DNA of 64,000 nucleotides from Sphingomonas sp. Leaf412 (GTDB taxonomy: Bacteria; Pseudomonadota; Alphaproteobacteria; Sphingomonadales; Sphingomonadaceae): the NCBI RefSeq assembly GCF_001425405.1, contig NZ_LMQP01000003.1, forward strand, positions 1,202,642 through 1,266,641, read 5' to 3'. The notes under the pieces are model-generated. The model was not told where the DNA came from and made no database searches. It was given only the letters and a program-made list of their open reading frames with translations. Below, piece after piece: positions 7,257-64,000 of this stretch (its first letter is position 1; each line of letters begins with the position of its first letter). The position numbers were made by a program, and so were the translations under genes.

Positions 7257-7261
7257 TCCGC

Positions 7262-7899: not shown

Positions 7900-8270
7900 C
7901 CGCGACCAAGGAACAGACGAAGAGCAAGACCCGCACCGCCGCACGCCAGGCGAGCGACGCGATCGAGTCCAACCCGCTGGGCGTGCTCGTCGGCGGGCTG
8001 GCGGTCGGCGCGCTGGTCGGCGCCGCACTGCCGCGCAGCCGGCGCGAGAAGGAACTGCTGGCTCCCGTCGGCAAGCGCATCGGCGCGACCGCGGTGGCGG
8101 CGCTCGCCGCGGCGAAGGAAACCGGCCGGGTCGAACTCGGCAACATCGGCCTGACGAAGGGCGCGGCGAAGGATCAGGCCAAGGGCCTGCTCGCAAACGT
8201 CGCGAAGGCGGCGGGCGCGGCGGGCAAGGCCGCGATCGACGCGGGCCGCGAAAAGGCGAAGCGCAAGTGA
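7896..8270 (+). CDS. Hypothetical protein of the YqjD/YqjE operon
   Basis: This 124-residue basic protein has a glycine/alanine-rich hydrophobic segment (NPLGVLVGGLAVGALVGAALP) that could span or insert into the membrane, followed by a lysine-rich helical C-terminus (GKAAIDAGREKAKRK). It is the last gene of the four-gene set, overlapping the preceding gene by 4 bases and followed by a hairpin terminator at 8277-8300. The alternating A/K composition recalls histone-like or LEA-like stress proteins, but this is only a compositional impression. Confidence 0.62.
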   Translation: MTATKEQTKSKTRTAARQASDAIESNPLGVLVGGLAVGALVGAALPRSRREKELLAPVGKRIGATAVAALAAAKETGRVELGNIGLTKGAAKDQAKGLLANVAKAAGAAGKAAIDAGREKAKRK

Positions 8271-9323: not shown

Positions 9324-9325
9324 CG

Positions 9326-9802
9326 TCAGATGAACTCGATCTTCGACACCACGTAATAGCGGTCGCCCGCGGGCACCGACACCTCGACCTCGTCGTCGAC
9401 GCTGCGGCCGATCAACGCGCGACCGATGGGGGAATTGTACGAGATCCGTCCCGTCTTCGCATCCGCCTCGGTCTGGCCGACGATCTGGTAGCGGACCGGC
9501 TTATCGTCCTCGTCCAGCAACGTCACCGTCGCGCCGAACACCACCTTGTCGCCCGACATGTCCAGCGGGTCGATGATCTGCGCCCGGGACAATTTGTCCT
9601 CGATATCCGCGATCGACGCCTCGACCTGCCCCTGCCGCTCCTTGGCGGCGTGATATTCCGCGTTTTCCGACAGGTCGCCATGCGCGCGCGCTTCCTCGAT
9701 CGCGTCCACGATCGTCGGGCGTTCGATCTTCAGCCGTTTCAGGTCCGCGGTCAGCCGGTCATAGCCTTCCTGGAGCATCGGCATCTTCTCGACGGTCGCC
9801 AT
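9326..9802 (-). CDS. greA: Transcription elongation factor GreA
   Basis: GreA rescues backtracked RNA polymerase by stimulating transcript cleavage through its coiled-coil tip. The 158-residue product has the N-terminal coiled coil with the tip motif [14 protein letters not shown] and a C-terminal FKBP-like domain ([11 protein letters not shown] to [12 protein letters not shown]). The ATG at 9802 was chosen because it follows GGAAG at good spacing and gives [13 protein letters not shown], although the frame is open further upstream. The order carA, carB, greA on one strand is common in alphaproteobacteria. Confidence 0.95.
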
Positions 9803-9886
9803 GGCGCCACTTCCTTCAATAAATACCCCATCGTCGAGCGACCCTCCCTGCCGGGTCGCCCGCACACACCTCGTGACTGTCGGGGA

Positions 9887-12800
9887 TCAGTTGTGCGGCT
9901 GCGAATAATAGGACTGGAGCGGTCGCACTTCAAGGTTGTGCAGCGCGGACGCCCGGATCGCCTTCGCCGCCTCGATGCTGGCCGAGGCGGTCGTGAAATA
10001 CGGGATGCGCCCGTTCACCGCCGAGGCGCGGATCGGCTGCGAATCCTTCAGGCTCTGCCAGCCTTCGGTGGTGTTGAAGATCAGGTCGATGCCGCCGTCC
10101 TTGATCCGGTCGACGATATGCGGCCGCCCCTGCGCCACCTTGTTGACCTTCTCCACCGGCAGGCCCGCGCGCTCCAGGTGATCCGCCGTCCCGCCCGTGG
10201 CGACGATCGTGAAACCGGCCTCGACCAGGTCGCGCGCCGCGCCGACGATCAGCGCCTTGTCCCCGTCCTTGACGCTGACGAACACCGCACCCTCACTCGG
10301 CAGGACGGTGCCCGCGCCGAGCTGCGCCTTGGCGAAGGCGGTGGTGAAATCGGGATCGATTCCCATGACTTCGCCGGTGGACTTCATCTCGGGAGACAGG
10401 ACCGGATCGATGCCGGGGAAGCGATTGAAGGGGAATACCGCCTCCTTCACCGCGAAATAGTCGATCGCGCGGTCGATCGCGGGCAGGTCGCGCAGCTTCT
10501 CCCCCGCCATCACGCGCGCCGCGATCTTCGCGATCGGCGCGCCGATGGCCTTGGCGACGAAGGGCACGGTGCGGCTGGCGCGCGGATTGACCTCGATCAG
10601 GTAGACCAGCCCGTCCTTCACCGCGAACTGGATGTTCATCAGGCCCTTCACCGACAGGCCATGCGCCAAGACCGTCGTCTGCCGCTCGATCTCCGCGATG
10701 ATGTCGGCGGACAGCGAATAGGGCGGGATCGAACAGGCGCTGTCGCCCGAATGGACCCCCGCTTCCTCGATATGCTGGAGCACGCCCGCGACCACCACAT
10801 CGTCGCCGTCGCAGATCGCGTCGACGTCGACCTCGATCGCGTCGCGCAGATATTGGTCGATCAGGACGGGGGAATCGCCCGATACCTGCACCGCGGTCTG
10901 GATATAATCCTCCAGCTGCTGGTCGCTGTCGACGATCTCCATCGCGCGGCCGCCCAGCACGTAACTGGGGCGCATCAGCACGGGATAGCCGATGCGATTG
11001 GCGACGTTCAGCGCTTCCTCGCGGCTGCGCGCGATGCCGTTCGACGGCTGGAGCAGCTTCAGCTTGTTGACCAGCGCGGCGAAGCGCTCGCGATCCTCCG
11101 CCAGGTCGATCGCATCCGGGCTGGTGCCCAGGATCGGGATCCCCGCCGCCTCCAGCGCGCGCGCCAGGTTCAGCGGCGTCTGTCCGCCGAACTGCACGAT
11201 CACGCCGACCAGCTCGCCTTTCGACGCCTCGACATGCAGGATCTCCAGCACGTCCTCCGCGGTCAGCGGTTCGAAATACAGGCGGTCGCTGGTGTCGTAA
11301 TCGGTCGAGACGGTTTCGGGATTGCAATTGACCATGATCGTCTCGAACCCCGCGTCCGCCAGCGCGAAGCACGCGTGGCAGCAGCAATAATCGAACTCGA
11401 TCCCCTGCCCGATCCGGTTCGGCCCGCCGCCCAGGATCACGACCTTGCGCCGGTCCGACGGCTGGCTCTCGCACTCGGGCTCGCCGAAGCTGGGCGCCTC
11501 GTAGGTGGAATACATGTACGGCGTCTTCGCATCGAATTCCGCGGCGCAGGTGTCGATGCGCTTGAAGACCGGACGCACGCCCAGTTTCAGGCGGTGCTCG
11601 CGCACCTCCTCCTCGGTCACGCCGCCGGTCATCGCCTTCACCGCCTCGTGGATCAGCCCGCTCCCACGCGCGATGCCGCGGCTCATGCCGCGCAGGTTCG
11701 CGGACTGGAGCGCAAGCCACGCGAGGCGCTTGTCGCTGAACCCCATCGCCTTCAACCGGCGCATCCCCGCCGCCTCGATCGGCAGGCCGTCCTTCATCAC
11801 CTCGGCCTCCGCCGCGACGATCTCGGCGATCCGTTCGAGGAACCACGGATCGTATTTCGCGATCGCATTCACTTCCGCGACGGTAAAGCCCTCCCGCAAC
11901 GCCTGCGCCGCGACGAGCAGCCGGTCGGGCGTCGGCGCAGCGAGCGCCGCCTCGATCTCCGCGCGCGGCGCGCCGATCAGGCGGTCGACATGGTTGAAGC
12001 CGCTCAGCCCGGTTTCCAGCCCGCGCAGGGCCTTCTGCATCGATTCGTGGATGTTGCGGCCGATCGCCATGACCTCGCCGACGCTCTTCATCGCGGTGCC
12101 CAGCAGCGCCTCCGCACCCTTGAACTTCTCGAACGCGAAGCGCGGGATCTTCGTCACGACATAGTCGATCGTCGGCTCGAACGACGCCGGGGTCGCGCCG
12201 GTGATGTCGTTGACGATCTCGTCCAGCGTATACCCGACCGCCAGCTTCGCCGCGACCTTCGCGATCGGGAAGCCCGTCGCCTTCGACGCTAGCGCCGAGG
12301 ACCGCGACACGCGCGGGTTCATCTCGATCACGATCAGCCGGCCGTCCTTCGGATTCACCGCGAACTGTACGTTCGAACCGCCGGTTTCAACGCCGATTTC
12401 CCGCAACACCGCGATCGATGCGTTACGCATGATCTGATATTCCTTGTCGGTCAGCGTCAGCGCGGGCGCGACGGTGATCGAATCGCCGGTGTGGACGCCC
12501 ATCGGGTCGATATTCTCGATCGAGCAGATGATGATGGCATTGTCCGCACGGTCGCGGACCACCTCCATCTCATATTCCTTCCACCCGAGCAGCGATTCCT
12601 CGATCAGCACCTCCGTCGTCGGCGACAGGTCCAGCCCCTTGCGGACGATCTCCAGGAATTCCTCGCGGTTATAGGCGATACCTCCGCCCGATCCGCCCAT
12701 CGTGAAGCTGGGCCGGATGATCGCGGGCAGGCCGACCTTGGCCAGCCCCTCCAGCGCCTCCGCTTCCGTATGCGCGATCGCGGAGCGCGCGCTTTCCAGC

Positions 12801-52009: not shown

Positions 52010-52086
<77 letters not shown>

Positions 52087-52168
52087 ATCTTTAATAATCG
52101 TTGTTTTACAATGACTTAACTCGAGCCGCTGTAGCAACGATGGTGACGTCTGCTGTAGCGAGTTTGAG

Positions 52169-52477
52169 ATGCTTGGTTCGTTGAACGATTCTGATCTTGC
52201 GTGTGACTCGGCGCTTTGGCGGGAAGTGCTACCGGCTGTGCGCATTGCCATCACGCGCGGTCCCCTTCCGCACGCGGACTTCGACGGTTGGGAGCGGCAT
52301 TGCCGCGAAGAAAATTGCCTTGCCGTAGAGTCGATGCGTTGGCTTGATGATGCCTCCTCGAACGCGCACGCTGAGTGGTCCACGAGTCCGTCAGAACTCT
52401 TGCGCTCCGAAGTGCACCTGATTGATCATGCACGCGCCGCGTTGCGGCGACGGGCAGCCGACAAATCGAGCGGCTAG
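52169..52477 (+). CDS. Hypothetical protein at the island edge
   Basis: This soluble protein of 102 residues starts MLGSLNDSDLACD and is helical at the C-terminus (ELLRSEVHLIDHARAALRRRAADKSSG). It precedes the cytosine methyltransferase by about 80 bases on the same strand, so it may belong to the restriction-modification cassette, for example as a regulator. However, no helix-turn-helix is evident. Coding potential is moderate, and an opposing frame here is only an antisense artefact of the tRNA. Existence and role are both uncertain. Confidence 0.4.
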   Translation: MLGSLNDSDLACDSALWREVLPAVRIAITRGPLPHADFDGWERHCREENCLAVESMRWLDDASSNAHAEWSTSPSELLRSEVHLIDHARAALRRRAADKSSG

Positions 52478-52559
52478 GGTTTCTCGTGCGCCACCATATT
52501 GAACGGAACGGATAGGGAACATACTTGCACTCATCGGGATGGTGCGGCATGTATATCCG

Positions 52560-53612
52560 ATGAAGGCACTCGATCTTTTCTCAGGACCTGGCGGCTTGTC
52601 GTTGGGCATGAAGCGGGCTGGGATCGACCCCCTCGCATGCGTCGAGAAGAGCAAGGATGCGGTGGCGACATATGACGCTCACACCCCTAACGCTGAACAT
52701 CACCACTCTGACATTCGCAGCATCTCGTTTGGGCGCTATCGCGGGACTGTGGACCTGATTTTCGGCGGACCACCTTGCCAGCCGTTCTCAACGGGCGGCT
52801 TGCGTCGAGGCACGGCTGACAGCCGCAACATGTTCCCGGAATTTATTCGCGCGTTGAAGGAAGTTGGTCCTGCGGCGTTCTTAGCGGAGAATGTCCCAGG
52901 TCTGACTACCCGTAGCCGGATTCATTACCTCGCGAGCCTTGTGAGCGAGTTCGAGGCGTTAGGGTACAACGTCTCTTGGAATGTGGTGTCCGCAGCTGAT
53001 TACGGCGTGCCACAAAAGCGTCGTCGTCTCATCATTGTAGGCATGAAGAACGGGACATTCTGGTTCCCGAAGCCAACACACGGGCCAGATGGCCACACAC
53101 CTCACGTCGCGTCTGGCAGCGTGATCGACAAGGCGGTGCCACTCGGCGAGCCACCCGATTGCCCCGTTGTCTACGCAAAATATCCAGATCCACGCCGCAG
53201 CCCTTATGCTGGTCACGTCTACAATGGCGGCGGTCGCCCTATCGATCTGTCGGCGCCGTGCCACACGCTATTGGCCTCTGCGGGCGGCTATAAGACACAT
53301 TGGATCGATACAATGGACATCGCCCCCGATTATTCCGCACATCTGATGGCGGGGGGCGCGCCTCGGGATGGGTTCGTTCCCGGTGCGCGTCGCATGTCGC
53401 TAGAAGAGTCGGTGCTAATCCAGACCTTCCCATCGGACATGTGGTTCGCAGGCTCACGGTCGTCGCAGTACACACAAGTCGGCGACGCTGTTCCGCCTAT
53501 GCTAGGTCACGCACTTGGTAGCGCGCTGCGAAGCCAGCTCGAAGGAGCTGCGATCTCACCGCTGACGCACTATCAACCCGAGGCGACATTGCCTTTGTTG
53601 GTGGCCGCTTAA
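52560..53612 (+). CDS. DNA (cytosine-5-)-methyltransferase
   Basis: This modification enzyme of a type II restriction system has about 350 residues. The C5 methyltransferase motifs occur in order: I (LDLFSGPGG, residues 4-12), IV with catalytic C73 (GGPPCQPFS), VI (ENV at 110-112), VIII (QKRRRLIIVG) and X (QVGDAVPPMLG). The target-recognition region lies between VIII and X. I used ATG 52560 because MKALDLFSG is the usual start; the frame extends to 52539. The last base of the stop is the first base of the next gene's ATG, so methyltransferase and presumed nuclease are translated together. Confidence 0.93.
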   Translation: MKALDLFSGPGGLSLGMKRAGIDPLACVEKSKDAVATYDAHTPNAEHHHSDIRSISFGRYRGTVDLIFGGPPCQPFSTGGLRRGTADSRNMFPEFIRALKEVGPAAFLAENVPGLTTRSRIHYLASLVSEFEALGYNVSWNVVSAADYGVPQKRRRLIIVGMKNGTFWFPKPTHGPDGHTPHVASGSVIDKAVPLGEPPDCPVVYAKYPDPRRSPYAGHVYNGGGRPIDLSAPCHTLLASAGGYKTHWIDTMDIAPDYSAHLMAGGAPRDGFVPGARRMSLEESVLIQTFPSDMWFAGSRSSQYTQVGDAVPPMLGHALGSALRSQLEGAAISPLTHYQPEATLPLLVAA

Positions 53613-54679
53613 TGCCCCGCAATCTGTTGGTCGAACGCGCCGTTGACGTTGCGCTTGATCGAATGGACGCCTTCATTGAAGGCGAAAAGCTCGCGGCCTT
53701 ACCAGACGCTGCGGCACGCGCGGCGATGGACGGGCAGCTTGGCCACGGTTCTAACAGCGTGCGGTTAGCGTCGCTGTTCTTCGTCTTTTATGCGACGGTC
53801 GATACGGGCTGGGACTGTAATTCGATCCCCACGGGCATTCGGGGCACCTACGGCGACAAGCGGTTGGCGACGCAACTAGGTCTTCGTAGCATCACACTTC
53901 ACAACGCCGTTACGGCTTTCGGCGAAAATCTTGGCTGGAAAGGCAACGTCACCAACTCGCGGCTTCAGAACGACGTGCGGTTCGACGGTTTCGCCCGCAG
54001 TCTTGCTGGCCTGAATGTTGCGCAGCGAACGCTATGTGCGGACTATATGGCGGCGCGGTTCGCCGAAAGCCGGAAGGTGATTGCACCATTGCCGCCGGTT
54101 TCCGACGACGTTTTAACCTACGCCCGTGCGCGGAAGCTGTTTTATTCTCTGATTGCCATTCCGTCCGAAGGTAACGTTCAGCAGTTCCTCATTGCGGCGC
54201 TACTGTTCGTCCATCGCCAGCGGTACGGTTATGACATTCGGACACACCACGTCCATGCGTCCGACCGGTTCGACGCGACTGCCGGCGACATTGAGGAATT
54301 GCTGAATGGCGATCTTGTGCGCGCCTTTGAAGTGACCGTTCGCCCGGATTGGAAGAACCGTGTAGGGGACTTCCGCAAAAAGATGGATGGTGCGAACCTC
54401 CGCAAGTATACCATCATCGCGTCTAACGTAAACAGCGACGACGATCTTGCAGAACCTGCTGACATGATACGCTTTCTTGCGCCGTATGGTCGTGATATTG
54501 CATTCGTAGACATAAGCGACTTCGTCAACGTATTTGCAATGGAACTGCATGCAGACGAACTCCGTCGAGCCGTGACGCAGACATACAGCTATCTTACCAC
54601 ACCCAGTTTGTGCGGCCGCGCCGATATTGTTGACAAGTTCAACGCGGTAGTCGAGGGCTGGCTGGACGAAGCTGTTTGA
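53612..54679 (+). CDS. Presumed type II restriction endonuclease
   Basis: This 355-residue protein is directly coupled to a cytosine methyltransferase (TAATG overlap), which is the main reason to call it the cognate endonuclease. It begins with a helical domain (RAVDVALDRMDAFIEGEKLAAL) and has a conserved-looking centre (GLRSITLHNAVTAFGENLGWKGN). A candidate nuclease core follows: FEVTVRPDWKNRVGDF after an acidic DIEELLNGDLV, weakly reminiscent of a PD-(D/E)XK site. Its size and partner type would fit the SacI-like endonuclease family, but I cannot confirm this by eye. The recognition sequence is unknown. Confidence 0.6.
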   Translation: MPRNLLVERAVDVALDRMDAFIEGEKLAALPDAAARAAMDGQLGHGSNSVRLASLFFVFYATVDTGWDCNSIPTGIRGTYGDKRLATQLGLRSITLHNAVTAFGENLGWKGNVTNSRLQNDVRFDGFARSLAGLNVAQRTLCADYMAARFAESRKVIAPLPPVSDDVLTYARARKLFYSLIAIPSEGNVQQFLIAALLFVHRQRYGYDIRTHHVHASDRFDATAGDIEELLNGDLVRAFEVTVRPDWKNRVGDFRKKMDGANLRKYTIIASNVNSDDDLAEPADMIRFLAPYGRDIAFVDISDFVNVFAMELHADELRRAVTQTYSYLTTPSLCGRADIVDKFNAVVEGWLDEAV

Positions 54680-54903
54680 TCTCTAGCGGACGCATCGATT
54701 GAATCGTGATGCTCTGTCATTTCTCAAACCCGAGCGCCTTATAAATCCGAAGCGAAGAGCGCGGGGACGCTGCGTCACACTGAAATGAGGTCGAAGCCCT
54801 TGACATGCGCGAGCTTCGTCACCGTATCGGGTCCGCGCTTCGCGGCACATGATTCGGACTATCATGGACATCGCTGCGAGTTCCAATGGAAACGGTGGCG
54901 GGA

Positions 54904-55479
54904 TCAACCCCGCTTCTCTACTCGCTGGATCGCGGCGCGGCTCACACCGTATTGCCTCGCCAGTGCACCGAGTGACACGCCGCTCGACCGGCTCGCAAGC
55001 ACGTCACGCTGCTGATCCCGTGTGAGAACTGTCGGGCGCCCGAGCACCTTCCCTTCCGCCCTGGCGCGCGCCAGGCCAGATTGCGTGCGTTCGATCAGTA
55101 GGTCGCGCTCAAACTCCGCAACGGCGTTGATGACGCCCATGGTCATTTTGCCCGCCGCGCTTGTGAGGTCCACCCCGCCAAGGGCTAGACAGTGGACCCG
55201 CACTCCCTGCCCTGCCAACGCCTCTACCGTAGCCCGCACGTCCATGGCGTTGCGCCCCAAGCGATCCAGCTTCGTGACGATCAGCACGTCGCCATCTTCA
55301 AGGCGATCCATAAGCTTCGCGAACCCCTTGCGATCCATGGCCGCTACCGACCCTGACACGGTTTCGGCGATCACACGCCGCGGCTCAATCGAGTAGCCGG
55401 CGCTCTCGATTTCCCGCACTTGGTTGTCGGTGTGCTGATCCCCGGTGCTGACGCGGCAATAGGCGAAGGTGCGGGCCAT
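54904..55479 (-). CDS. Serine recombinase (resolvase/invertase family)
   Basis: This 191-residue small serine recombinase has nucleophile S11 in YCRVSTGDQ, the KLDRLGRN motif of the catalytic domain, the long helix [22 protein letters not shown], and a C-terminal helix-turn-helix ([20 protein letters not shown]). It is full length for the Pin/Tn3-resolvase type. ATG 55479 was preferred over an upstream in-frame ATG. Repeats of GTATCGAAA lie directly upstream of its start (55493-55595) and may be its recombination or operator sites. It could resolve or invert DNA, or mobilise the island. Confidence 0.92.
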
Positions 55480-55492
55480 CGGTGCGACTCCT

Positions 55493-55595
55493 GTATCGAA
55501 AGCGTGCATCGTAACTACCAGCGTATCGAAATTATCGTCAACCTATATTTCGATACATCCGTCGCATCTGGCTCGTAATCGGTCGTTTCCGATAC
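55493..55595. promoter_or_regulatory. Candidate recombinase binding (res-like) site
   Basis: The 9-base motif GTATCGAAA occurs at 55493-55501 and 55523-55531, and inverted at 55548-55556. The second and third form a perfect 10-base inverted repeat (GTATCGAAAT, 55523-55532 and 55547-55556) spanning 34 bases, the size of a resolvase subsite. A variant half (TTTCCGATAC, near 55586-55595) lies further on. The block is immediately upstream of the recombinase gene, where res sites and operators usually lie. The surrounding gap 55510-55831 has no credible gene. Confidence 0.5.
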
Positions 55596-55831
55596 GGCGG
55601 ACGAGAAGACCAGTGCGCTTATGCCATCGCACAAGGGTAGCCATCTCGCGGCGACTGATTGTTGCTCATCATTTGAGGCTGGAGGAGCGGCAATTTTCTT
55701 GGTGCGAGGTTGAATAGGGCTGGAAAAGTTGATCCGTTGCATCGCTTCCGCAATTGGCCTAGCCAACGCCGAAGGGTTGGAGGCGAGCCATACTTAGTAT
55801 CTTCACATGGCCCTTTGACGCCGGTTCCGCC

Positions 55832-56323
55832 TTGGTGGTAGCGGGTTGGGGTTTTTGGTTTGGCGCGCTAGGACTTGTTCTCACTGTCGGTGGTTTCAGG
55901 ATCACGTGGGTTCAGCTAAAAAGGACAGAGAATGCTGCCGAAGCCGCCAGCAAAGAAATTGCTCGCATACAGCTAGCTATTGCTACCTACGACGCAGCGC
56001 AGGAAACGTCCCGAGCTATGACGGCCTTGGATGCGGCAAGACGCCACCTTCGGAATACTGCCTGGGCCGACGTTGCAGATAGTTACGAAACTTTTCGGCG
56101 CTCCATAATGACCGTCGCTGCCATTCAGCAGCTTACCGACGAGATGGGCGAAGAGGTAGTCGCCGCAAGCAAATATGTTACCCGCCTTTGTGAGCGTATC
56201 GAAGAAGGGCTTGTTAAAGGTACTGTCCAAGTCGATACTGCCAAGACAATATCGATGATTCGTCAACATGATGAGTTAGCTGGACAGATAAGCCTGCATT
56301 TGCAGAGAGGTGCGATACAGTGA
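55832..56323 (+). CDS. Hypothetical membrane-anchored coiled-coil protein
   Basis: This 163-residue protein (GTG start; a TTG lies one codon earlier) has one N-terminal transmembrane helix (WGFWFGALGLVLTVGGFRI) and then a long helical, probably coiled-coil cytoplasmic part (NAAEAASKEIARIQLAIATYDAAQ to the C-terminus). It has no enzymatic motif. Its stop overlaps the start of the next gene by 4 bases (GTGA), so the two are translated together. Composition is A+T-richer than the core genome. Function unknown; possible defence or phage-interference role by context only. Confidence 0.65.
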   Translation: MVVAGWGFWFGALGLVLTVGGFRITWVQLKRTENAAEAASKEIARIQLAIATYDAAQETSRAMTALDAARRHLRNTAWADVADSYETFRRSIMTVAAIQQLTDEMGEEVVAASKYVTRLCERIEEGLVKGTVQVDTAKTISMIRQHDELAGQISLHLQRGAIQ

Positions 56324-56709
56324 GTGATACGATCCGAAAGTACCGTACGTTAGTAGAGAAACTTTACATTCGTACCAAGTCCGATTTAATAAATTGGAAA
56401 TGGGACGAAGAACAGAAAATTGTATCTTCTAAGATTGCAGATCTGTTCGTAGATTTAAAAAAGGGTGTCAACGACAATTTTGAAGATTTGTATAGCGTTG
56501 TTGTCTACGGACCCGCCGGTCATGTTGTCGATGAGTTTAATGATGAATATATTTCATCGCCCTCGGCAAAGCCGGGAACATTGAATTTTGATTCTTATTT
56601 CTTTTTGATGGACGCTTTATACGAAATGGCTTACCGAAAGTCGATCGGCGCAGATAAGGCGCTTGATCAGATTTTAACGTATCTTGATGAAATCGAAGAT
56701 CCGTTCTGA
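56320..56709 (+). CDS. Hypothetical small acidic protein, A+T-rich gene
   Basis: This 129-residue soluble protein has a basic N-terminal segment (SDTIRKYRTLVEKLYIRTK) and an acidic remainder with many aromatic residues (FDSYFFLMDALYEMAYRKS). The DNA is clearly the most A+T-rich gene in the window, with codons such as TTA, AAA and ATT that are rare in the neighbouring genes, indicating recent acquisition. GTG start overlapping the preceding gene. The stop lies 4 bases from the end of the convergent phage block. No known family recognised. Confidence 0.65.
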   Translation: MSDTIRKYRTLVEKLYIRTKSDLINWKWDEEQKIVSSKIADLFVDLKKGVNDNFEDLYSVVVYGPAGHVVDEFNDEYISSPSAKPGTLNFDSYFFLMDALYEMAYRKSIGADKALDQILTYLDEIEDPF

Positions 56710-56712
56710 TAA

Positions 56713-57093
56713 TCAGTCGCCAATATTCTTTGTTGTGACATCTAGTAGCGCCGCCCCAAAGTCGTCCCTGCCCACGGAATCCCGCTTCGTCATATCCCGC
56801 GATTTTTGGGCCATACCCAGCTTGATTAGCAGCTGCCCCAGCATCGCGACGTTCCGGCGGTGGTTCTCCTGATCCACCGGCTTGCCATCCAAGAGGTCCG
56901 CGGTAGCCTGCTCGCAAAGCATCGCGATCGTCGCTGCATTCATCAGCAATAGGCGTTCCGATGCCGTGGGGTTGCGGCCTAGCTGCTCCGTGAGGTCCGT
57001 TCCGATCGATCGGAAGCGACGCGCCTCCATGGTGCGCCCGTCCACCTTGCGGCCTGCCACGACCAGATCGAACGCCGGGGGTTCAATGGACAC
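56713..57093 (-). CDS. Phage-block hypothetical protein
   Basis: This 126-residue soluble helical protein has a central segment RNPTASERLLLMNAATIAMLCEQATADLL and a later helix HRRNVAMLGQLLIKLGMAQ. It is the last gene of the minus-strand head block and overlaps the HTH-containing gene by 11 bases, so it belongs to the same transcript. It could be a small packaging or regulatory protein, but no motif proves this. A small-terminase role is possible in principle and unproven; small terminase genes normally lie next to the large one. Confidence 0.6.
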   Translation of the reverse strand: MSIEPPAFDLVVAGRKVDGRTMEARRFRSIGTDLTEQLGRNPTASERLLLMNAATIAMLCEQATADLLDGKPVDQENHRRNVAMLGQLLIKLGMAQKSRDMTKRDSVGRDDFGAALLDVTTKNIGD

Positions 57094-57520
57094 TGGCTGT
57101 TCCTCCCATGGAATACCCGATCGCCTGGGCAGCTTGGATCACGCGGGCCGTGGTAGCGGGTGCGATACGCCCAGTGCCCTTGAGCGCCCGCGCTACCGTT
57201 ATCCCCGACACACCGGCATGCTTCGCGACGTCCGCCATAGTGACGGTGCAGGGGTTATTTTGGACATGATCGACATACGCCAGCACACAGTCGCGGGTGG
57301 TCCGCGGTTCCAGGCCAGCGAGCGTGCATACCATGGCGAAGTCGTCACCACCGTTCGCGAACCATGCGCGGGCGGATTGCTGGATAGTGCGATGCGTATC
57401 CCCGATGCGGCGCCCGCCAGCCGCCTCTATCGCCGCGTTGGCGACGACGCCAAGGAATAGGCGTTGTTCGGGGCTGATCGCGCGGGAAACGGTTGCGGAC
57501 TGGTCCAGGGCGTAGCTCAT
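57083..57520 (-). CDS. Small phage protein with C-terminal LacI-type helix-turn-helix
   Basis: This 145-residue protein joins an unrecognised N-terminal helical part (SPEQRLFLGVVANAAIEAAG, NGGDDFAMVCTLAGLEP) to a C-terminal segment (about residues 94-136: TMADVAKHAGVSGITVARALKG then RVIQAAQAIGY) that matches the DNA-binding headpiece of LacI repressors. The sugar-binding domain of true LacI proteins is absent. It overlaps the minor head gene by 4 bases (ATGA) and so is made with structural proteins, which is an odd place for a regulator. It may link head gene expression or packaging to DNA binding. Confidence 0.75.
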   Translation of the reverse strand: MSYALDQSATVSRAISPEQRLFLGVVANAAIEAAGGRRIGDTHRTIQQSARAWFANGGDDFAMVCTLAGLEPRTTRDCVLAYVDHVQNNPCTVTMADVAKHAGVSGITVARALKGTGRIAPATTARVIQAAQAIGYSMGGTASVH

Positions 57521-58500
57521 GCCGCCCGCCTCAGTACCGCCTTGCACCGACAACCGGCTTCCAGGGGCGGCGTGAAGCACGGCCCCAGGGGGGTTGCGAA
57601 CGGCTGGTTTAGGGGCACACCGTCGCGGTTCATTGCGGGCACCTGGGCATGCGCGAGGCGCACGCGCTCGTCCCCGGCGGTCCGCCAGTACCGGCGCTGA
57701 TCGGCGGGTAGCGCGCCAAACCGCTGGGCGATCTGCCACCCCGTGAGCTTGGCAGCTTCCGCGATGCTGTGCGCGGCGTTCCCGGCGACTGCCTTGGTGC
57801 GGGCGTTGCGAAGGGCACGCGCGTGCTTGTCCAGGATCGCTTCCGCCTGGGCTGGCGTCGTTCCGATGCGGATGGCCTTCGTGAGCATCTGGCGCTGGGC
57901 AGCGGTGATGTTGCCGCGGGTCGGTGCCAGGATGGCGTTGGCGTCGGCGCGGGGGTCCGCGGCATGCGCGACCAGGGCTTCGCGCACGACGTGAAGGGAA
58001 CGGGCCTGATTGCTCGAAAGGCCGGTGATGCGACGTATCTGGGCCGCGCGGCTGTCGGGGCTTCCTGGGGCTACCAGCATGCGCTGAAACGTCTCCCGTA
58101 GAGCGTTGGCGCTTTCGTGGAGGTAGGCGGCGCGGAATGAGCGAACGGCGCTGTCGCGGGCTGTGGTGGCGTCTGCGGCGTTTGTGTTGGCGACATGACG
58201 GACGTGCGCCGCTGCCAATGCCGTGATTGCGGCGAAGAACGACGCAAGGCCGATTGCCATGGCTGTGGCGTCCAGGGCATCGGCGAGTCCGCTGTGGTCC
58301 AGTTCGTCGGTGCCGATGAAGGTAGCAAGCTGTTCGCGGTAATGGTCGCGGGCGTCCGCGCCATCGTCGTCGGCGTGGCCCAACATTGCGGCGAGTAGCA
58401 TGATGTCCAGACTGGCGATGGCATCATCGATCGCGGCGTTCAGGGCAGCTTCGATGTCCGCTTCCTGCTGATCGGTGAGTTGGTCGATAGGATCGATCAC
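57517..58500 (-). CDS. Phage Mu F-like minor head protein
   Basis: This 327-residue protein has the C-terminal signature of the Mu F/SPP1 gp7 family of minor head (head morphogenesis) proteins: YWRTAGDERVRLAHAQ, then MNRDGVPLNQPF, and finally PPLEAGCRCKAVLRR. The N-terminal two thirds are helical and alanine-rich. Such proteins associate with the portal and help in head assembly or DNA ejection. The GTG start overlaps the previous stop by 4 bases. Its place after the connectors, far from the portal gene, is unusual, since it commonly follows portal. Confidence 0.82.
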   Translation of the reverse strand: MIDPIDQLTDQQEADIEAALNAAIDDAIASLDIMLLAAMLGHADDDGADARDHYREQLATFIGTDELDHSGLADALDATAMAIGLASFFAAITALAAAHVRHVANTNAADATTARDSAVRSFRAAYLHESANALRETFQRMLVAPGSPDSRAAQIRRITGLSSNQARSLHVVREALVAHAADPRADANAILAPTRGNITAAQRQMLTKAIRIGTTPAQAEAILDKHARALRNARTKAVAGNAAHSIAEAAKLTGWQIAQRFGALPADQRRYWRTAGDERVRLAHAQVPAMNRDGVPLNQPFATPLGPCFTPPLEAGCRCKAVLRRAA

Positions 58501-59015
58501 AGCTGGACCTCCGCGACGTTGGCGGACGATGCGCGCAGATGCGGTTCGATCAGTCGACGGACGTGCTTGGGCAGCTCATCCGTGATCGTCGGGAAATACA
58601 TGGTCATCGAGTCGCCCAGCATCCGCTGCATCACGGGGGCGCCGGGGAGCTGCCCTTGCGCAAGTAGGTGGATAGCAAGCTCTACAGCCGCGGCTTCGAT
58701 CGCTGGTGGGGTCGCGACGGTAAGCGGATAACCATGGGGACAGCGATCGGGCACACGCGGCCATGCCAGTGCCTGCGTCGGGGCTACGGATCGCCCCTGC
58801 CAACGCATGCGGTCTAGCAGCGCCGTCGCGGTGATAAGTGCCTTGCTTTGATCGCCTTCGTTGGCGCGATGCCATGGGTCCGCGAACAAGCGGGTCGACG
58901 CGAACGCATCCGCCGCGGGGTGGCTGACATACGAGTTCAGGCCGGCGCTGATTGTCCAGGCGGGCGGCGGGCCTTCCTCGATTGGTTCTTCGTCGTTCAG
59001 GTCGTCGTAGGTCAC
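58497..59015 (-). CDS. Phage DnaT-like / head-tail connector-type protein
   Basis: This 172-residue phage protein shows the pattern annotated as putative DnaT-like in many prophages: NSYVSHPAADAFASTRLFADPWH near the start, KALITATALLDRMRWQG and an ALAWPRVPD motif, then helices. Despite the annotation name, the position right after the capsid region and the helical fold suggest a head-completion (connector) role. The GTG start overlaps the neighbouring stop by 4 bases. The functional call is an inference. Confidence 0.65.
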   Translation of the reverse strand: MTYDDLNDEEPIEEGPPPAWTISAGLNSYVSHPAADAFASTRLFADPWHRANEGDQSKALITATALLDRMRWQGRSVAPTQALAWPRVPDRCPHGYPLTVATPPAIEAAAVELAIHLLAQGQLPGAPVMQRMLGDSMTMYFPTITDELPKHVRRLIEPHLRASSANVAEVQL

Positions 59016-59386
59016 GTCAGGGATACCTTATGGAGCACGCCACCGGGGAGGTTTCGGCGCTCCAGGCGGACCACCTTGAGGGCGGTTGCGTCGGGCAGCT
59101 CGAATGTATCGCCGATGATGATTGGGTGGGGGTGGTCGATCAGCCACACGGTCGCGGTGGCGTTGGCGATGGCCTCGTTGGATGCGGCGCCAAGCGTCTT
59201 GCCTGGGCTGTAGGTCACGCGGGCGCGGTGAAGGGTGACTGTGCCGCGGCCCGGTGAGAAGGACAAGCCGTTACCGCTCCAATTCTCGCTAGGTGCCACA
59301 ATGGTTTCGCGCCCAAAGATGTCGCGGACCGGATCGCGCCAGTGGCGCACGGTATCGGTCATGAGCGGCAAGAGGTCAGCGAGCAT
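59012..59386 (-). CDS. Phage head-completion-like protein
   Basis: This 124-residue beta-rich protein (GRGTVTLHRARVTYSPGK, TATVWLIDHPHPIIIGDTFEL, LKVVRLERRNL) has the size and strand pattern of phage head-tail joining or stopper proteins. It lies between the capsid and the DnaT-like connector gene, with a 4-base overlap on the downstream side. No specific signature is recognisable, so the call rests on size and order. Confidence 0.55.
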   Translation of the reverse strand: MLADLLPLMTDTVRHWRDPVRDIFGRETIVAPSENWSGNGLSFSPGRGTVTLHRARVTYSPGKTLGAASNEAIANATATVWLIDHPHPIIIGDTFELPDATALKVVRLERRNLPGGVLHKVSLT

Positions 59387-59592
59387 GGGGCACCTTTAAA
59401 AGAGGTTGCCACCCGCGCGCCCCATTTCAGGAGAGTGGGCGCCGGTGGCTTTCGGGGTTTTGCTGCACGGGCACTGTCCGAATGATCCCGCGCCGGGTGT
59501 TGCCACCCGGCCCCATCCACTCCGATGCGCGCGGCGGGCATCCTTTCCAGCGCATCGAATATGTGGGTGGCTTCTATTGCCCGTCGGGGAGC

Positions 59593-60492
59593 TTACGCCG
59601 CCTTCACGCCCTTGAGGCGGGCCGCGGCCTTGGGATGCTTGATGACGTAGCCCGAGTACCATTCGGTGCGCGTCCGAAGCGCGGGCTTGTCGTCCACCTC
59701 GCCCAGGTCGCGCGCTTCGATCGGCTTCGTCTGGATTCCGTGCATCGTGTCCGCGCCGAAACGGACCGCATAGATGCTGGCCGTCGCGTTCGCCGTGCCC
59801 TGGGCTTCATCGAAGGCCAAGATTTCCGCGCCCGTCTCGTCTTCCTCCACGATGCCGAACGGAACGCCGGCATAGCCGTCCAGTTCGCGGCCGAGCTGGT
59901 CCGTGGAGATCGTGAGGGCATTGACCGATCGGGCGAGCTGGCGAGCGCGCCGGCGGATGGTCTTGTTCATGAGCAACAGCGTGGGCGTGCCGCGCACCGC
60001 GTCGACCAGCTCGTCCAGCATTTCCAGCGTCAGCACGTTTCCGTTGGCACCGGCGGACAGAACCTGTTCCCCGGTCAGCCGGCGGTTGAGTCCGTCGAAC
60101 TCCTTGGGGTTCGTGGAAGTGTTGCCGTCGAAGAAAGTGCGGCACCACGTCAGCGCCGCCGCCTTCGCCTTGAGTGCGTCGTGAATTGCGCGAGTATCGT
60201 TGTCGCCGGTCTGCATCGCAATCTGGGCAACGTCGAAATCGCTATCGCCTCCCAAGATGGTAAGCGTCTCGGTGAGCGGGTTCACAACGCCGGTGCTTTC
60301 CACGTAGCCCTCGTTGAAGCCGCGGAAGGCAACACCGGGAAGCGATGTCTCACGGTTGTAGGTGAATGCATTGCCGGCGATGTTGATGAACGGCATCGCA
60401 GCGAGCACAGGGTTCTCGGTAGCGAAAATCTCGACAATACCGGACGTGAGCTGATCGGGGTTCAGCTTCGCCCATTCGGTGATCGTTAGCAC
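59593..60492 (-). CDS. Phage major capsid protein
   Basis: This 299-residue protein is recognisable as a gp7-like/HK97-fold major capsid protein: N-terminal LTITEWAKLNPDQLTSGIVEIFATENPVLAA segment, FINIAGNAFTYNRETSLPGVAFRGFNEGY, a long helix (FDVAQIAMQTGDNDTRAIHDALKAKA), and a C-terminal beta-rich part (YAVRFGADTMHGIQTKPIEARDLG). It begins at GTG after GAGAGGA. Its neighbour upstream is the scaffold-like protein. About 200 bases without a credible gene separate it from the next gene downstream. Confidence 0.82.
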   Translation of the reverse strand: MLTITEWAKLNPDQLTSGIVEIFATENPVLAAMPFINIAGNAFTYNRETSLPGVAFRGFNEGYVESTGVVNPLTETLTILGGDSDFDVAQIAMQTGDNDTRAIHDALKAKAAALTWCRTFFDGNTSTNPKEFDGLNRRLTGEQVLSAGANGNVLTLEMLDELVDAVRGTPTLLLMNKTIRRRARQLARSVNALTISTDQLGRELDGYAGVPFGIVEEDETGAEILAFDEAQGTANATASIYAVRFGADTMHGIQTKPIEARDLGEVDDKPALRTRTEWYSGYVIKHPKAAARLKGVKAA

Positions 60493-60516
60493 TTGAAGGT
60501 ATCCTCTCTTGTATTG

Positions 60517-60822
60517 TTATTTGCGGTATCCGCCGGCCATGCGAGCAAAGACAGGCAGGGACGACGGATCGGGGGTGGTCGGTGTGATGGAAGGCTTGCC
60601 GCTGTCGGTCGCAGGTACGACGGGCTTGGCGTCGAAAACGCCGGTGGCCTTCGCGGTGTCGAACCACGCGAGCTGTTCCGCGGGCGACATGCTGGCGGGG
60701 ATCAGCCCGCGAAGAGCTTCCGGGACGCCGGCAAGCACGGTGGCCGCGGTGGCCGCGAGCTGGGCCTTGAGTGCGGCAAGCTCCGCGACGGCGGGGTCAG
60801 GCGTGGGGGTCTCGTTTTCCAT
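60517..60822 (-). CDS. Phage scaffold-like protein
   Basis: This 101-residue protein lies between portal and major capsid, the usual place for a scaffolding protein. It has an acidic N-terminus (MENETPTPDPAVAEL), a helical centre (LAALKAQLAATAATVLAG), a segment LIPASMSPAEQLAWFDTAKATGVF and a proline-rich C-terminus. Scaffolds are typically acidic or helical and low in complexity, as seen here, but there is no decisive motif. ATG 60822 was preferred to longer frames overlapping the portal gene. Confidence 0.65.
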   Translation of the reverse strand: MENETPTPDPAVAELAALKAQLAATAATVLAGVPEALRGLIPASMSPAEQLAWFDTAKATGVFDAKPVVPATDSGKPSITPTTPDPSSLPVFARMAGGYRK

Positions 60823-60830
60823 GTTAGCTC

Positions 60831-62120
60831 CTACAGGGGCAGCGCGAGTGCGGCGGACTCGTCGCGGCGGGATTGAAGTTCGCGCATCGCGGCGGTGCGA
60901 TCGGGGTAGCCATCGGGATTGATCGCCATCAGCGCGTCGGCGGGGGACCAAAGGCCCAAGTCGATTTTCTCGCGGCTGTTGGCGAGCTGTTCGGATTCGG
61001 TCAGGCTGTCCATCAATTCGGCGAAGTCGACCGCGATCGTGGCATCGTCGGGGATGGTGCCGGGGCGGTGCGTGTTCACAACCGCCTTGAGCACAGCGAA
61101 CAAGCGGGCTTCGCCGATGCGCCATTGCGCGATGTCGTCCAGGCGTTCTTCCCGAAGCTCGATGCGGCCCGCGTGCTTCGCGCTACCGGACTCGGCTACC
61201 TTGGACAGGTCGAAGACGTCGCTGCCCACGCCGTGAGTGGCCGCTGTCTGGCGCATTACGAACTCGATCGCCGACAGGATCGATGCGATCGGCGAATTGG
61301 GAGAAGCGAAGCCGAAGGTGCCGCCCTGGGGTAGCGCAATCGCGCGATCGGGGCCGAACTGTAGGATCTCGTTGGCGCTGATACCGGATGCCCAGGCTTG
61401 CCCGTGGGCTTGGCTTTCCACCGAGCGCCACAGGTTCGCGAGCGCGACGTTCACGGCGTCCTGGGCTTCGATGAGGTCATCGCCACCGGGGAGGAAGAAC
61501 TGGTCGTCGGGAAGCCGATCGAACAACGGGACGAAGGGGAGGACGCCGTAAGGGTTGGCGTTGCCAGGGTTGCCGTCGATCCGGCGGGGCGCGCCGCGGT
61601 AGTTAAGGCGGCGGTAGCCCGTTGCAGTCCAGTCGCTGAAAGTCACGTCTTCCGCGCGGGTGGCGCCGTGCGTGATGATAACACGCTCGGGGTGCTCGGG
61701 GTCGCTGTAGAGCACGTCCAGTACGTTCGGGGTGATGACGTTCAGCGTTGGCACGCCAGCGGCTTCGTTGAAGCCCACCTGCAAGACCGCGGTTTTGCAT
61801 AACTTCGTATATCGCGAAGCCTTCTTGAGCACCGCGTCGGCGTTGATCGACCGATAGAGCGCGTCCATCGTTGCTTGGTCGACGCCCGTGAATACCCGGC
61901 GGGGCTGGATGCGATAGGTATTGGCGCGGCGGTTCGTAATCGCGCGAACCATGTTGATGCTGAATACGCGGAACTGCTCGGGGCGCGACCACCGGCGGGC
62001 AATGAGCTTGAGCGTGTCCTGTGACTGCTCGTCCCAATAGTACCGAAGTCGACGCGCGCAAATATCCTTGCGATCCTTCGACGCGGTGGCTATACGGACA
62101 GTGTCAGATGAAAACAGCAC
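60831..62120 (-). CDS. Phage portal protein
   Basis: This 429-residue portal-type protein forms the ring at the capsid vertex through which DNA is packaged. Recognisable features are the N-terminal WDEQSQDTLKLIARRWSRPEQFRVFSINM region, the beta-rich NVITPNVLDVLYSDPEHPERVIIT, the central GGDDLIEAQDAVNVALANLWRSVE and the C-terminal helices with FAELMDSLTESEQLANSREKIDLGLWSP. It starts at GTG. It follows the terminase gene after an A+T-rich gap of about 75 bases. Relation to the SPP1-type portal family is suggested by pattern only. Confidence 0.82.
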   Translation of the reverse strand: MLFSSDTVRIATASKDRKDICARRLRYYWDEQSQDTLKLIARRWSRPEQFRVFSINMVRAITNRRANTYRIQPRRVFTGVDQATMDALYRSINADAVLKKASRYTKLCKTAVLQVGFNEAAGVPTLNVITPNVLDVLYSDPEHPERVIITHGATRAEDVTFSDWTATGYRRLNYRGAPRRIDGNPGNANPYGVLPFVPLFDRLPDDQFFLPGGDDLIEAQDAVNVALANLWRSVESQAHGQAWASGISANEILQFGPDRAIALPQGGTFGFASPNSPIASILSAIEFVMRQTAATHGVGSDVFDLSKVAESGSAKHAGRIELREERLDDIAQWRIGEARLFAVLKAVVNTHRPGTIPDDATIAVDFAELMDSLTESEQLANSREKIDLGLWSPADALMAINPDGYPDRTAAMRELQSRRDESAALALPL

Positions 62121-62183
62121 TTGGATCAGTAAGCCTTAAAGCCGAAAATACTGTAGCAGTATAAATCAAAAATCGATGTAAGT

Positions 62184-62202
62184 CACGATGTTTTTCATCG
62201 TG
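62184..62202 (-). other. Hairpin at the terminase-portal junction
   Basis: CACGATG and its complement flank a 5-base A/T loop, and the terminase stop codon lies in the loop region. The adjacent 62121-62194 stretch is A+T-rich, unlike the surrounding genes. It may attenuate transcription between packaging and portal genes or mark a processing site. Function not established. Confidence 0.4.
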
Positions 62203-63877
62203 GGACGGTGTGTGCGCCAATATTTTTCATTCTTGTTGTCGCGAACACTTCAAACGCCAACGGCTGGACCGGCTTGCGGTCGCGATAGGCATCGAAAAGC
62301 CGTGACGCCTCGCGCATCGATCGACATTCGCGGGCGCAAAGGGGGACGTGCCCCCCGCCATTCAGCACGCACGCCGCGACCGATGGTCCGCGTCCGTTGC
62401 AGTGGATGCCGTCGAGTTCGTAGGGGTTCAGGGATACGTGGCGCAGCGAGTGCGCGGCCCAGGCGACAGCATGCACGAAGTCGTCATGCGCGCCGCGGGG
62501 GTGCGTGAACTTCGGGATGGCGGCTTCGCCATCGGTTGCCTTCCCGTCCGAGTGGACCTCGAACACCGCCAGCTCCGAAAGCAAATCTTTGAAGGCCGGG
62601 TGGACGTGAAGGCGCTGTTCCGCCGCGGCCTGCCACAAGCCCATGAAGGCCTGATACTTCGTCCGCCGCGAGGGGTGGATTACCTCTACGCCGGAGCTGA
62701 ACGGCTGCGTCGCGGCCCAATCAGCGACGTCCTGGGCACCGTACGATTCCAGGGTGGCACGGGTCATGCCGTATCCGCGGTGGTATCCATCCAGGCGGCT
62801 CTTGATGCCGCCCAGGCGCCCCAGGAACACGCTGTCGGCGTCCAGGACGTACAGGTGCTCTTCGTCATCGATCACGATCTTTGCGACGCATGCGGTGACG
62901 GTGCGGTCGCCATGCTTCGATCCACCGAAAGCGCGGTCCAGGCCACCGCCGACGATGTATGCGGACCCGGCGGCTAGGGCCTTCACGTCCAGGGGATACT
63001 CGTGCGTGCATGCCGCCAGCACGTCGGCGGGGAACAAGGCGCTGGTCGCGTCACCCCAGCGGTTGAGGTGGTACAGCGCGAAGTCGTGCGGGAGCATCTG
63101 GCGCGCGAGCGAGCGCAGCTTCTTTTCGCTGATCCAGGGCGGCGCGTTGTGGCATGCGTCGTCCAGGTCGGCGTAGGATATGTGGCTGAACGCGATCGAC
63201 GTGTCGGGGTCGGTCGGATGGGTCGCGGCCTGATACAGCTCGTAGAGCTTGTTGGATTTCGGCGAGACGGTGCTGTCGATCAGCATCAGCGAGCCGGCGG
63301 TGTCCAGCAGCGAGCCGGCAAGCGCCGCGAACACCTCATCACCGCGGGGCGCGGCATGAAGCTCCGAGACTTGCGCTGTCGACAGCTTCTTGCCCCAGAG
63401 GGCAGCGGGATTGGCGCTGAACGCTTGGATCGTGGACCCGGCGGTCGGGAACTCGATACGATCGCCCAGCACATTGATTGTCCCCGCCGCGACCAGCCGC
63501 TTGAGCAACGGGGTTTGCTCGAAGGCCTCGCGGATCGACCGGAACGCCGTGTCGACCACTTGCTTTTCGCTGTTGGCGACAACCGCAACGTTTTCGGTCG
63601 CGCGGGTCAGAAACCGCCACACGATCACCATCGCCGACGTGACGGACTTCCCGTGCCGCCTGGGCCAGCAGAACACCGCGACGGACACGTCGCTGCCATC
63701 CAGGGCCTTCGCGATCTCCGCGGCTTCACGGGGGCCAGGAACGAAGGGGGTGAACCCGCCGGTGCTGGACCGGACACGCGGCTGCACTTCGTCCAGAAAC
63801 CGGAAGAACCCGGCGGACCCTTGGCGCCACGATGCGATCGACGCGGCAAGATTGGACGTGGTGTAGGCGGTGGACAC
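62195..63877 (-). CDS. Phage terminase large subunit
   Basis: This 560-residue DNA packaging motor (from GTG 63877; a TTG at 63889 is an alternative) has an N-terminal ATPase with a Walker A-like WPRRHGKS, adenine-binding and Walker B-like segments (SLMLIDSTVSP), and a C-terminal RNase H-like nuclease with acidic residues in GGGLDRAFGG, YVLDADSVFLG and HDDFVHAVAWA. It is the rightmost gene in the window and would be the first gene of the head transcript. No small terminase is visible next to it within the window. Confidence 0.85.
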   Translation of the reverse strand: MSTAYTTSNLAASIASWRQGSAGFFRFLDEVQPRVRSSTGGFTPFVPGPREAAEIAKALDGSDVSVAVFCWPRRHGKSVTSAMVIVWRFLTRATENVAVVANSEKQVVDTAFRSIREAFEQTPLLKRLVAAGTINVLGDRIEFPTAGSTIQAFSANPAALWGKKLSTAQVSELHAAPRGDEVFAALAGSLLDTAGSLMLIDSTVSPKSNKLYELYQAATHPTDPDTSIAFSHISYADLDDACHNAPPWISEKKLRSLARQMLPHDFALYHLNRWGDATSALFPADVLAACTHEYPLDVKALAAGSAYIVGGGLDRAFGGSKHGDRTVTACVAKIVIDDEEHLYVLDADSVFLGRLGGIKSRLDGYHRGYGMTRATLESYGAQDVADWAATQPFSSGVEVIHPSRRTKYQAFMGLWQAAAEQRLHVHPAFKDLLSELAVFEVHSDGKATDGEAAIPKFTHPRGAHDDFVHAVAWAAHSLRHVSLNPYELDGIHCNGRGPSVAACVLNGGGHVPLCARECRSMREASRLFDAYRDRKPVQPLAFEVFATTRMKNIGAHTVPR

Positions 63878-64000
63878 GGATGATCTCAAATCGGGGAGGT
63901 CGGGAGCTGATGGAACACCGCGTGGTCGCGGGATCAGTCTAACGACGCTCGACTTGAGCGGCCCGTCCTGGGCGTGGACCGCACGCGGTCCGGGTAGTTC

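Follow-up and report, generated by a model that had tools for sequence, protein, structure and literature searches.

We identified an integrated element of 15,305 bp in Sphingomonas sp. Leaf412 (contig NZ_LMQP01000003.1) which encodes a set of phage head and packaging genes and which we consider likely to be a capsid-forming phage satellite. As judged from its gene content, the element has its own heads and packaging motor and no recognisable tail genes, and it therefore probably borrows tails from another particle. The window, the whole stretch of 64,000 nucleotides that was analyzed, contains positions 52087-64000 of the element; the remainder, up to 67391, lies outside the window, and positions beyond 64000 are given in extended numbering read from the host contig (Table 1).

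Integration at a tRNA-Pro gene

The first-pass annotation placed a tail-less head module at 52087-64000. Its start, just after tRNA-Pro, was correct and its end was not, as the extension past 64000 that it had proposed located the true end at 67391. To the right of 64000 only an uncharacterised 314-aa ORF and a tyrosine integrase were found, followed by the second attachment site, so that a prophage running on to the right of 64000 was ruled out. The last 23 bases of the tRNA-Pro gene are repeated exactly at the far end, and a tRNA-Met gene starts 53 bp past attR. The integrase and the flanking direct repeat of a tRNA 3' end identify an integrated mobile element at a tRNA gene with both attachment sites present. 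The tRNA-Pro/tRNA-Met site is empty in a relative genome (G360).

Table 1. Features of the element and its borders (positions above 64000 in extended numbering, outside the window).
Feature	Position	Strand	Basis or remark
tRNA-Pro(TGG)	52010-52086		directly left of element start
attL	52064-52086	+	last 23 bases of tRNA-Pro gene
C5-cytosine DNA methyltransferase (cargo)	52539-53612	+	PF00145, E 3e-62; TIGR00675
Type II restriction endonuclease (cargo)	53612-54679	+	PADLOC PDLC03410, 764 bits over residues 1-354
Serine resolvase/invertase	54904-55509	-	PF00239; phrog_125
Two overlapping cargo ORFs (163 and 129 aa)	55832-56709	+	weak matches only
126-aa helical protein, candidate small terminase subunit	56713-57093	-	conservation and position in relatives
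LacI-type helix-turn-helix protein	57083-57739	-	PF00356, E 6e-13
MuF-like minor head protein	57517-58500	-	phrog_3517, E 1e-13; PF04233 (MuF) below Pfam cut-off
Head-tail adaptor Ad1	58497-59015	-	phrog_477, E 9e-22; PF20557
Head-closure (stopper)-like protein	59012-59386	-	fold only
Major capsid protein, GP7-like	59593-60492	-	phrog_212, E 3e-81; PF20911 (GP7), E 5e-20
Scaffold-like protein	60517-61125	-	position between portal and capsid; start overlaps portal
Portal protein	60831-62120	-	phrog_145/104, E about 1e-4
TerL, large terminase subunit	62195-63889	-	PF03354; phrog_9, phrog_2
314-aa ORF	64458-65402	-	precedes TerL
Tyrosine integrase (621 aa)	65527-67392	-
attR	67369-67391		exact 23-bp repeat of tRNA-Pro 3' end

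Head, packaging and cargo genes

The minus-strand block of terminase, portal, scaffold-like, capsid, two connector-like and minor head genes described by the first-pass annotation was confirmed, five of the products being recognised by profile, the head-closure-like protein by fold and the scaffold-like protein by position. TerL carries the Walker-A-like motif PRRHGK and ends in a conserved C-terminal tail that contains Cys. Comparison of the capsid protein and TerL with solved structures gave weak matches, the best of which were other major capsid proteins and T4 Gp17. The scaffold-like ORF showed no family match in profile searches and is conserved in relatives. The head-closure-like protein also had no family match in profile searches, and an AlphaFold model was built from 20 homologues (pLDDT 73, with residues 31-47 below 50). 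The seven best matches of this model in a Foldseek search of the PDB were all phage connector, neck or tail chains (best E 4e-3, none below 0.001, TM at most 0.51), and the modelled fold suggests that the product is likely a head-closure (stopper)-like protein. The 126-aa protein is a candidate small terminase subunit (TerS). It is present in 25 of the 30 loci compared, the remaining five being cut short of its position, and in nine outer-clade loci it is located upstream of TerL, directly next to it in L079 and L080 and at a distance of 1-1.4 kb in the other seven. It has no family match and no profile match to the TerS of E. coli EDL933, and a TerS fold was not recovered, as its model (pLDDT 84) returned nothing in a Foldseek search of the PDB.

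The remaining genes include a restriction cassette, already noticed from the sequence and now assigned to a C5 methyltransferase and a type II endonuclease, the latter without a Pfam or NCBIfam match. The resolvase gene sits between two cargo zones and most relatives have a resolvase-like gene. The true start of the LacI-type protein is probably near 57515, after the MuF-like gene. Family searches gave no function for the 314-aa ORF, which is present in only 6 of the 30 loci.

No tail or lysis family was found among the 18 ORFs of the element scanned against PHROGs, a set comprising all but a few small ORFs, and no such genes lay beyond 64000; of the tail and integrase genes for which a profile search had been suggested, only the integrase was recognised. 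A head protease, also noted as missing at first pass, was not detected among 16 ORFs scanned against Pfam and 18 against PHROGs, with a sub-threshold Peptidase_S8 match inside the resolvase as the sole exception, and the same scans revealed no HNH endonuclease. An independent virus with tail-less or unusually tailed particles and no need for a helper would also carry head, packaging and integration genes of its own, and a GDSL-lipase-like protein in L034, which also matches a virion-structural family, and a tape measure gene in L129 indicate that accessory entry parts can occur. We regard such a virus as highly unlikely, because neither lysis and tail families nor any receptor-binding family occur among the 18 ORFs scanned, and because the usual role of adaptor and head-closure proteins is to attach a tail.

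A family of elements of near-constant size

Relatives with a collinear core were found in other sphingomonads, in different species with the same limits, order and size, and most longer relatives keep the core gene order. Twelve distinct att-bounded elements measure 14,562-15,974 bp (mean 15,213, SD 424, 2.8%), and among them a longer core goes with a shorter cargo (r = -0.84). When cargo lengths were shuffled 100,000 times, in a test that ignores the shared ancestry of the elements, an equally small spread arose in 0.036% of the shuffles (0.55% without L129). Cargo varies among relatives, with matches including restriction-modification, reverse transcriptase, GmrSD, SLATT and Shedu genes. In a genus survey 7 of 250 genomes carried the element, Leaf412 included, indicating a patchy distribution; one of the seven copies is a broken remnant. 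Of the 62 viral contigs whose TerL was at least 40% identical, 61 did not exceed 19.3 kb, and the exception carries another prophage next to the element; such sizes are weak evidence alone, since provirus contigs are trimmed and a good many metagenome contigs may be incomplete. The 50,960-base contig behind L059 was rejected as a full phage of the family, as it holds the element and a second, podovirus-like prophage (named by eye) with its own integrase. No match to the portal was present among 50,697 phage records, and TerL had one weak match among phage records; a plasmid origin was rejected, no TerL match being present in 72,556 plasmid records at E 1e-10. The family was not met in the literature searched, which did not extend to the element lists of the cf-PICI paper itself.

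These data bear on the prophage remnant that the first-pass annotation had given as its alternative, in which tail, lysis and replication genes were lost and head genes kept by chance. Such decay could account for a head order resembling that of full phages with related capsids and for the lack of a recognised replication gene, and it has indeed occurred in G062, whose TerL spans 109 positions with two stops. In Leaf412, by contrast, TerL, portal and capsid are full length, equal to those of relatives, and show strong purifying selection (dN/dS 0.06-0.12 against six close relatives) without stops in these three genes. In two of seven relatives (L005 and L019) the integrase comparison showed a single stop, possibly because the ORF as listed begins inside attR. 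The conserved limits across species, the length held while cargo differs and the near-absence of portal and TerL matches in phage records further argue against decay, which we consider very unlikely. The reading as a capsid-forming satellite is supported by the intact head genes, by the absence of tail and lysis genes up to attR and by the conserved att-bounded family; helper dependence and mobilisation we infer.

Three distant relatives have a tape measure gene (L129, which is att-bounded, and L085 and L078, contigs for which no att site is shown), which means that tail genes are not wholly absent from the wider lineage. The phrog_52 tape-measure probe was silent in 7 of 7 records even though the record of L085 has a tape measure, and was not used as evidence of absence.

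Comparison with known systems and proposed life cycle

As in the element, TerL, portal, scaffold and capsid occur in this order in the tailed phages Tripp and Rowa, and in Rowa the capsid gene is followed by genes for adaptor and head-closure proteins. These tailed phages with a related capsid differ from the element, in which the head-closure gene comes before that of the adaptor, with MuF after it; Rowa differs further by a protease ahead of the scaffold and Tripp by a minor capsid gene. Capsids of the tailed phages (Tripp, Rowa, RXM) are at most 47.6% identical among the 25 matches listed and form a separate group in the capsid tree, with a support of only 84/21. Tail genes follow the head genes in all three phages, unlike in the element, and in two such phages neck, tail completion or terminator, and tube genes come directly after those of the head.

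Gene transfer agents (GTAs) of the RcGTA type likewise have head genes in an alphaproteobacterial chromosome. GTAs have tails and are not known to carry an integrase or att sites, whereas the element has both of the latter and no tail family among the 18 ORFs scanned; the GTA-like cluster of the host lies elsewhere in the genome and has an HK97-type capsid, portal and TP901-1-type tail tube. This cluster could itself be the tail donor instead of a phage, as a phrog_2/phrog_9 TerL search of the host genome found only the element and this one cluster. These two families do not cover all prophages, the phrog_24 tape-measure probe was silent in the host genome, even in the GTA-like cluster (which is no proof of absence), and no interface evidence ties the element to GTA tails. 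Furthermore, satellites may live in hosts lacking their helper, according to PMC11389934, and we consider a GTA donor most improbable. Very little weight is likewise given to a combined reading as a defence-satellite lineage apart from cf-PICIs, completed by host GTA tails, whose distant tape-measure members could set the length of the borrowed tail.

The cf-PICI features listed in PMC10690885 are major capsid, portal, head protease, connectors, TerL, TerS and HNH endonuclease, with helper tails and no tail genes. The element has its own capsid and portal, head-tail connectors (Ad1 by phrog_477, the head-closure-like protein by fold) and TerL; the head maturation protease and HNH endonuclease were not found, and on these two listed features the element falls outside the cf-PICIs. 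The E. coli EDL933 element (NZ_CP008957, 1680329-1694760), which we take to be EcCIEDL933, a cf-PICI, is likewise an integrase element of about 14-15 kb with its own capsid, portal, connectors and terminase and without annotated tail or lysis genes. Its order is integrase, regulatory/replication-type genes, capsid, prohead protease, portal, head closure, connector, HNH, TerS and TerL. In the Leaf412 element TerL stands first, portal and capsid are separated by a scaffold-like ORF, and the TerS candidate comes last with cargo behind it. Sequence kinship was not supported, as similarity in the genes compared (Ad1, integrase and other genes being outside the comparison) was confined to the TerL ATPase region (24% over 116 residues). 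The element may work like cf-PICIs, with another gene order. The Streptomyces satellites MulchRoom and MiniFlayer, as described in PMC10690885, also have their own capsid and packaging genes, and MulchRoom gets its tail from a helper; they differ from the element as parasites of virulent phages with terminal repeats and low GC.

In the proposed life cycle of the satellite, induction, probably by a helper, would lead the integrase to excise the element, which helper or host enzymes would replicate. Its own terminase would fill a small head made of its own capsid and scaffold proteins, the capacity of which would set the near-constant genome size. The adaptor and head-closure proteins would seal the head and offer a docking face to which helper tails would attach. 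After lysis of the cell by the helper, the particle would carry the 15-kb DNA into a new host, where the restriction pair may protect it.

Capsid-forming satellites have been described only recently, and the presence in sphingomonads of another head machine on a similar plan would suggest a further origin of the satellite lifestyle. Since some members have a tape measure gene, one may ask whether satellites are able to determine how long a borrowed tail becomes. The near-fixed genome size combined with differing cargo, defence genes included, offers a direct way to test both whether head capacity sets a limit and whether satellites trade defence genes.

Integration site and gene content of the element

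The window lies at positions 1202642-1266641 of contig 3 in a 3.46 Mb assembly which is 99.97% complete, and the neighbouring 40 kb of the same contig provided the sequence right of 64000. The minus-strand block of head genes and the restriction cassette near tRNA-Pro described in the first-pass annotation are both present in the element, and the rightward extension which that annotation had proposed reaches the second attachment (att) site, with a 314-aa ORF and an integrase preceding a repeat of the tRNA-Pro end. Its statement that tail and lysis genes are absent also holds past 64000, up to 67391, and a PHROGs scan of 18 of the element's ORFs gave no match to tail or lysis families. Judged by eye, the ORFs past tRNA-Met are host-like in appearance.

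Features of the element and its borders (positions above 64000 continue the window numbering)
Feature	Position	Strand	Remarks
tRNA-Pro(TGG)	52010-52086		
C5 methyltransferase and type II restriction enzyme			adjoining tRNA-Pro(TGG)
Serine resolvase-like gene	54904-55509		
Two overlapping cargo ORFs	55832-56709		first with hydrophobic N-terminal stretch
Head block	63889 down to 56713	minus	TerL (62195-63889), portal, scaffold-like protein, GP7-like major capsid protein, head-closure-like protein, adaptor Ad1, MuF-like minor head protein, LacI-type HTH protein, 126-aa helical protein
314-aa ORF	64458-65402		
Tyrosine integrase	65527-67392		621 aa; DUF6538 and Phage_integrase
Direct repeat TTCGAATCCTGTCTCCCCGACCA	67369-67391		23 bp; exact copy of tRNA-Pro 3' end (52064-52086)
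tRNA-Met	from 67445		after the repeat

The integrated element (15,305 bp) has a GC content of 61.3% compared to 70.4% in its flanks. The joined flanks, used as a query, align in one piece (query positions 1-207 of 288, 78%) in a relative, G360, at an empty site with the same tRNA order; the remaining matches, among those listed, span only one tRNA or its neighbourhood. The C-terminal 70 aa of TerL form a conserved extension with several cysteines invariant across the family, perhaps a metal-binding piece. The overlapping cargo ORFs are possibly an undescribed defence pair.

Conservation, distribution and length of the family

A search with the capsid protein identified 21 viral contigs and nine genome loci, one of which is in a MAG carrying a Gammaproteobacteria label. 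Two of the loci, L005 (= L131) and L010 (= L126), are from records of S. jeddahensis and S. kyeonggiensis, both in the host's genus. With a 10-row TerL alignment as query, 80 of 88 viral loci were kept, with TerL identities of at least 40% in 62 and at most 27% in 18. The core order integrase-TerL-portal-scaffold-capsid-(head closure)-Ad1-MuF-HTH-126aa is collinear in most loci of sufficient length; some core genes of more distant loci fall under the search threshold. A resolvase-like gene, in the window element and its relatives, usually marks the border between two cargo zones and may drive cargo exchange. TerL was found in 7/250 genomes of the genus, 2/385 of the class and 2/398 of the phylum, the host's own included and the same broken 109-position piece counted in genus and phylum, and the capsid in 4/396 genomes of the order, one of them weakly. 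This patchy occurrence suits a mobile element.

Repeats were looked for in seven of the nine genome loci, all but the short or end-cut L008 and L012: six of them carry an att repeat at tRNA-Pro, and L011 stops at a contig end. A tRNA repeat was present in two of seven viral loci tested out of 21. A later search added L125, L128 and L129, the last from a genome outside the host's order. The repeats of the 12 distinct elements measure 18-23 bp, and the insertion sites are tRNA-Pro(TGG) in ten, tRNA-Pro(CGG) in L034 and tRNA-Gln in L129.

In comparisons of the window element with six close relatives (L005, L006, L013, L015, L019, L020), TerL, portal and capsid had dN/dS values of 0.06-0.12, while those of head closure, Ad1, MuF and the 126-aa gene were 0.09-0.31, all without stops; against the more distant L009, values for these seven genes were 0.16-0.39. 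The integrase (0.10-0.37) has one stop compared to L005 and one compared to L019, and the 314-aa ORF gave 0.13-0.25 in the relatives that carry it. The high values of the HTH ORF (0.48-0.85) and its apparent stops in six of seven comparisons are probably due to the listed ORF starting inside MuF.

Element length is nearly constant: the 12 att-bounded elements span 14,562-15,974 bp (mean 15,213, SD 424). The total varies less than the core (SD 785, measured by hand from the att end to the 126-aa gene) or the rest (SD 715) since core length and rest length are negatively correlated (r = -0.84). Equally tight totals arose in 36 of 100,000 shuffled core/rest pairings (0.55% without L129), in a shuffle that ignores the kinship of the elements. 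We read the near-constant length as a packaging limit.

Cargo and tape measure genes

Cargo was scanned in 17 loci, a set that excludes the window element and four others, and comprised 94 non-core ORFs with a minimum length of 85 aa. The best 25 of 29 Pfam families include N6 methyltransferases, Eco57I, HsdR-N, reverse transcriptases and GmrSD, SLATT, PIN, FRG and Shedu domains, and the best 25 of 174 PADLOC matches are mostly RM and RT families. Among the best 25 of 52 PHROGs families there are two for tail completion or Neck1 and none for tail tube, tape measure or fibre. For 40 ORFs of eight att-bounded elements, the best 25 of 28 PHROGs families include one virion structural protein and no tail family. 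In the att-bounded L034, a 518-aa protein between Ad1 and MuF (8692-10248) has a GDSL-lipase domain together with a weak lectin-like match, and is possibly a surface or entry protein.

The att-bounded L129 (15,677 bp) carries head genes at its tRNA-Gln site and, as one of two non-core ORFs scanned, a 1,177-aa tape measure protein (4426-7959, minus strand; phrog_1292, E 3e-85; PF20155); no other tail genes were seen in it by eye. This protein might determine how long borrowed tails are. L085 encodes a 562-aa tape measure protein with a homologue in L078, and searches with the L129 and L085 proteins among ORFs of at least 150 aa in 132 loci found none beyond these three. These genes argue against a family wholly free of tail genes. 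L085 and L078 may themselves be genuine tailed phages whose contigs are short.

Relation to phages, islands and a possible helper

Capsid homologues occur in 291 of 50,697 phage records, with at most 47.6% identity among the 25 matches listed. TerL gave one weak match (20% identity) in these records and the portal none. The tailed phages RXM and Rowa have a similar head order followed by neck, tail completion or terminator, tube and tape measure, whereas in the element the order closes with MuF and the HTH and 126-aa proteins. A capsid tree of 49 rows separates five chosen tailed phages, as one weakly supported group (84/21), from the elements, and leaves L085 and L067 unplaced.

The capsids of capsid-forming phage-inducible islands (cf-PICIs) fall into three clades, according to PMC11389934. 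The EDL933 island of E. coli carries the parts reported for cf-PICIs, among them protease, HNH and TerS. The present element lacks two features, head protease and HNH, on the cf-PICI list in PMC10690885. A TerL stretch at 24% is the sole similarity among the genes compared between island and element.

In the host genome, phrog_2 and phrog_9 probes detected only the TerL of the element and one other (C1:101118-102227), which sits in a cluster with HK97 capsid and portal, head-tail connector and TP901-1 tail tube, with Phage_BR0599 nearby. From its layout, we call this cluster (G000:C1, about 91,000-102,300; L114, L115) gene-transfer-agent-like. That such an agent donates tails to the element is possible but unsupported. 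The tape-measure family phrog_24 gave no match anywhere in the host genome, this cluster included. These few probes (phrog_2, phrog_9, phrog_24) thus found no tailed prophage in the host; the helper is likely external. Elsewhere, a family member (L059, L109) shares a 51-kb contig with a prophage that, judged by eye, is podovirus-like and carries an integrase of its own and an RNA-polymerase-like ORF; this prophage is a possible helper.

The element is probably a capsid-forming satellite in its mode of life, belonging to another lineage than the EDL933 cf-PICI. The data show its integration and gene content, the conservation of the family and the constancy of its size. In such a life it would excise, replicate, be packaged and borrow tails.
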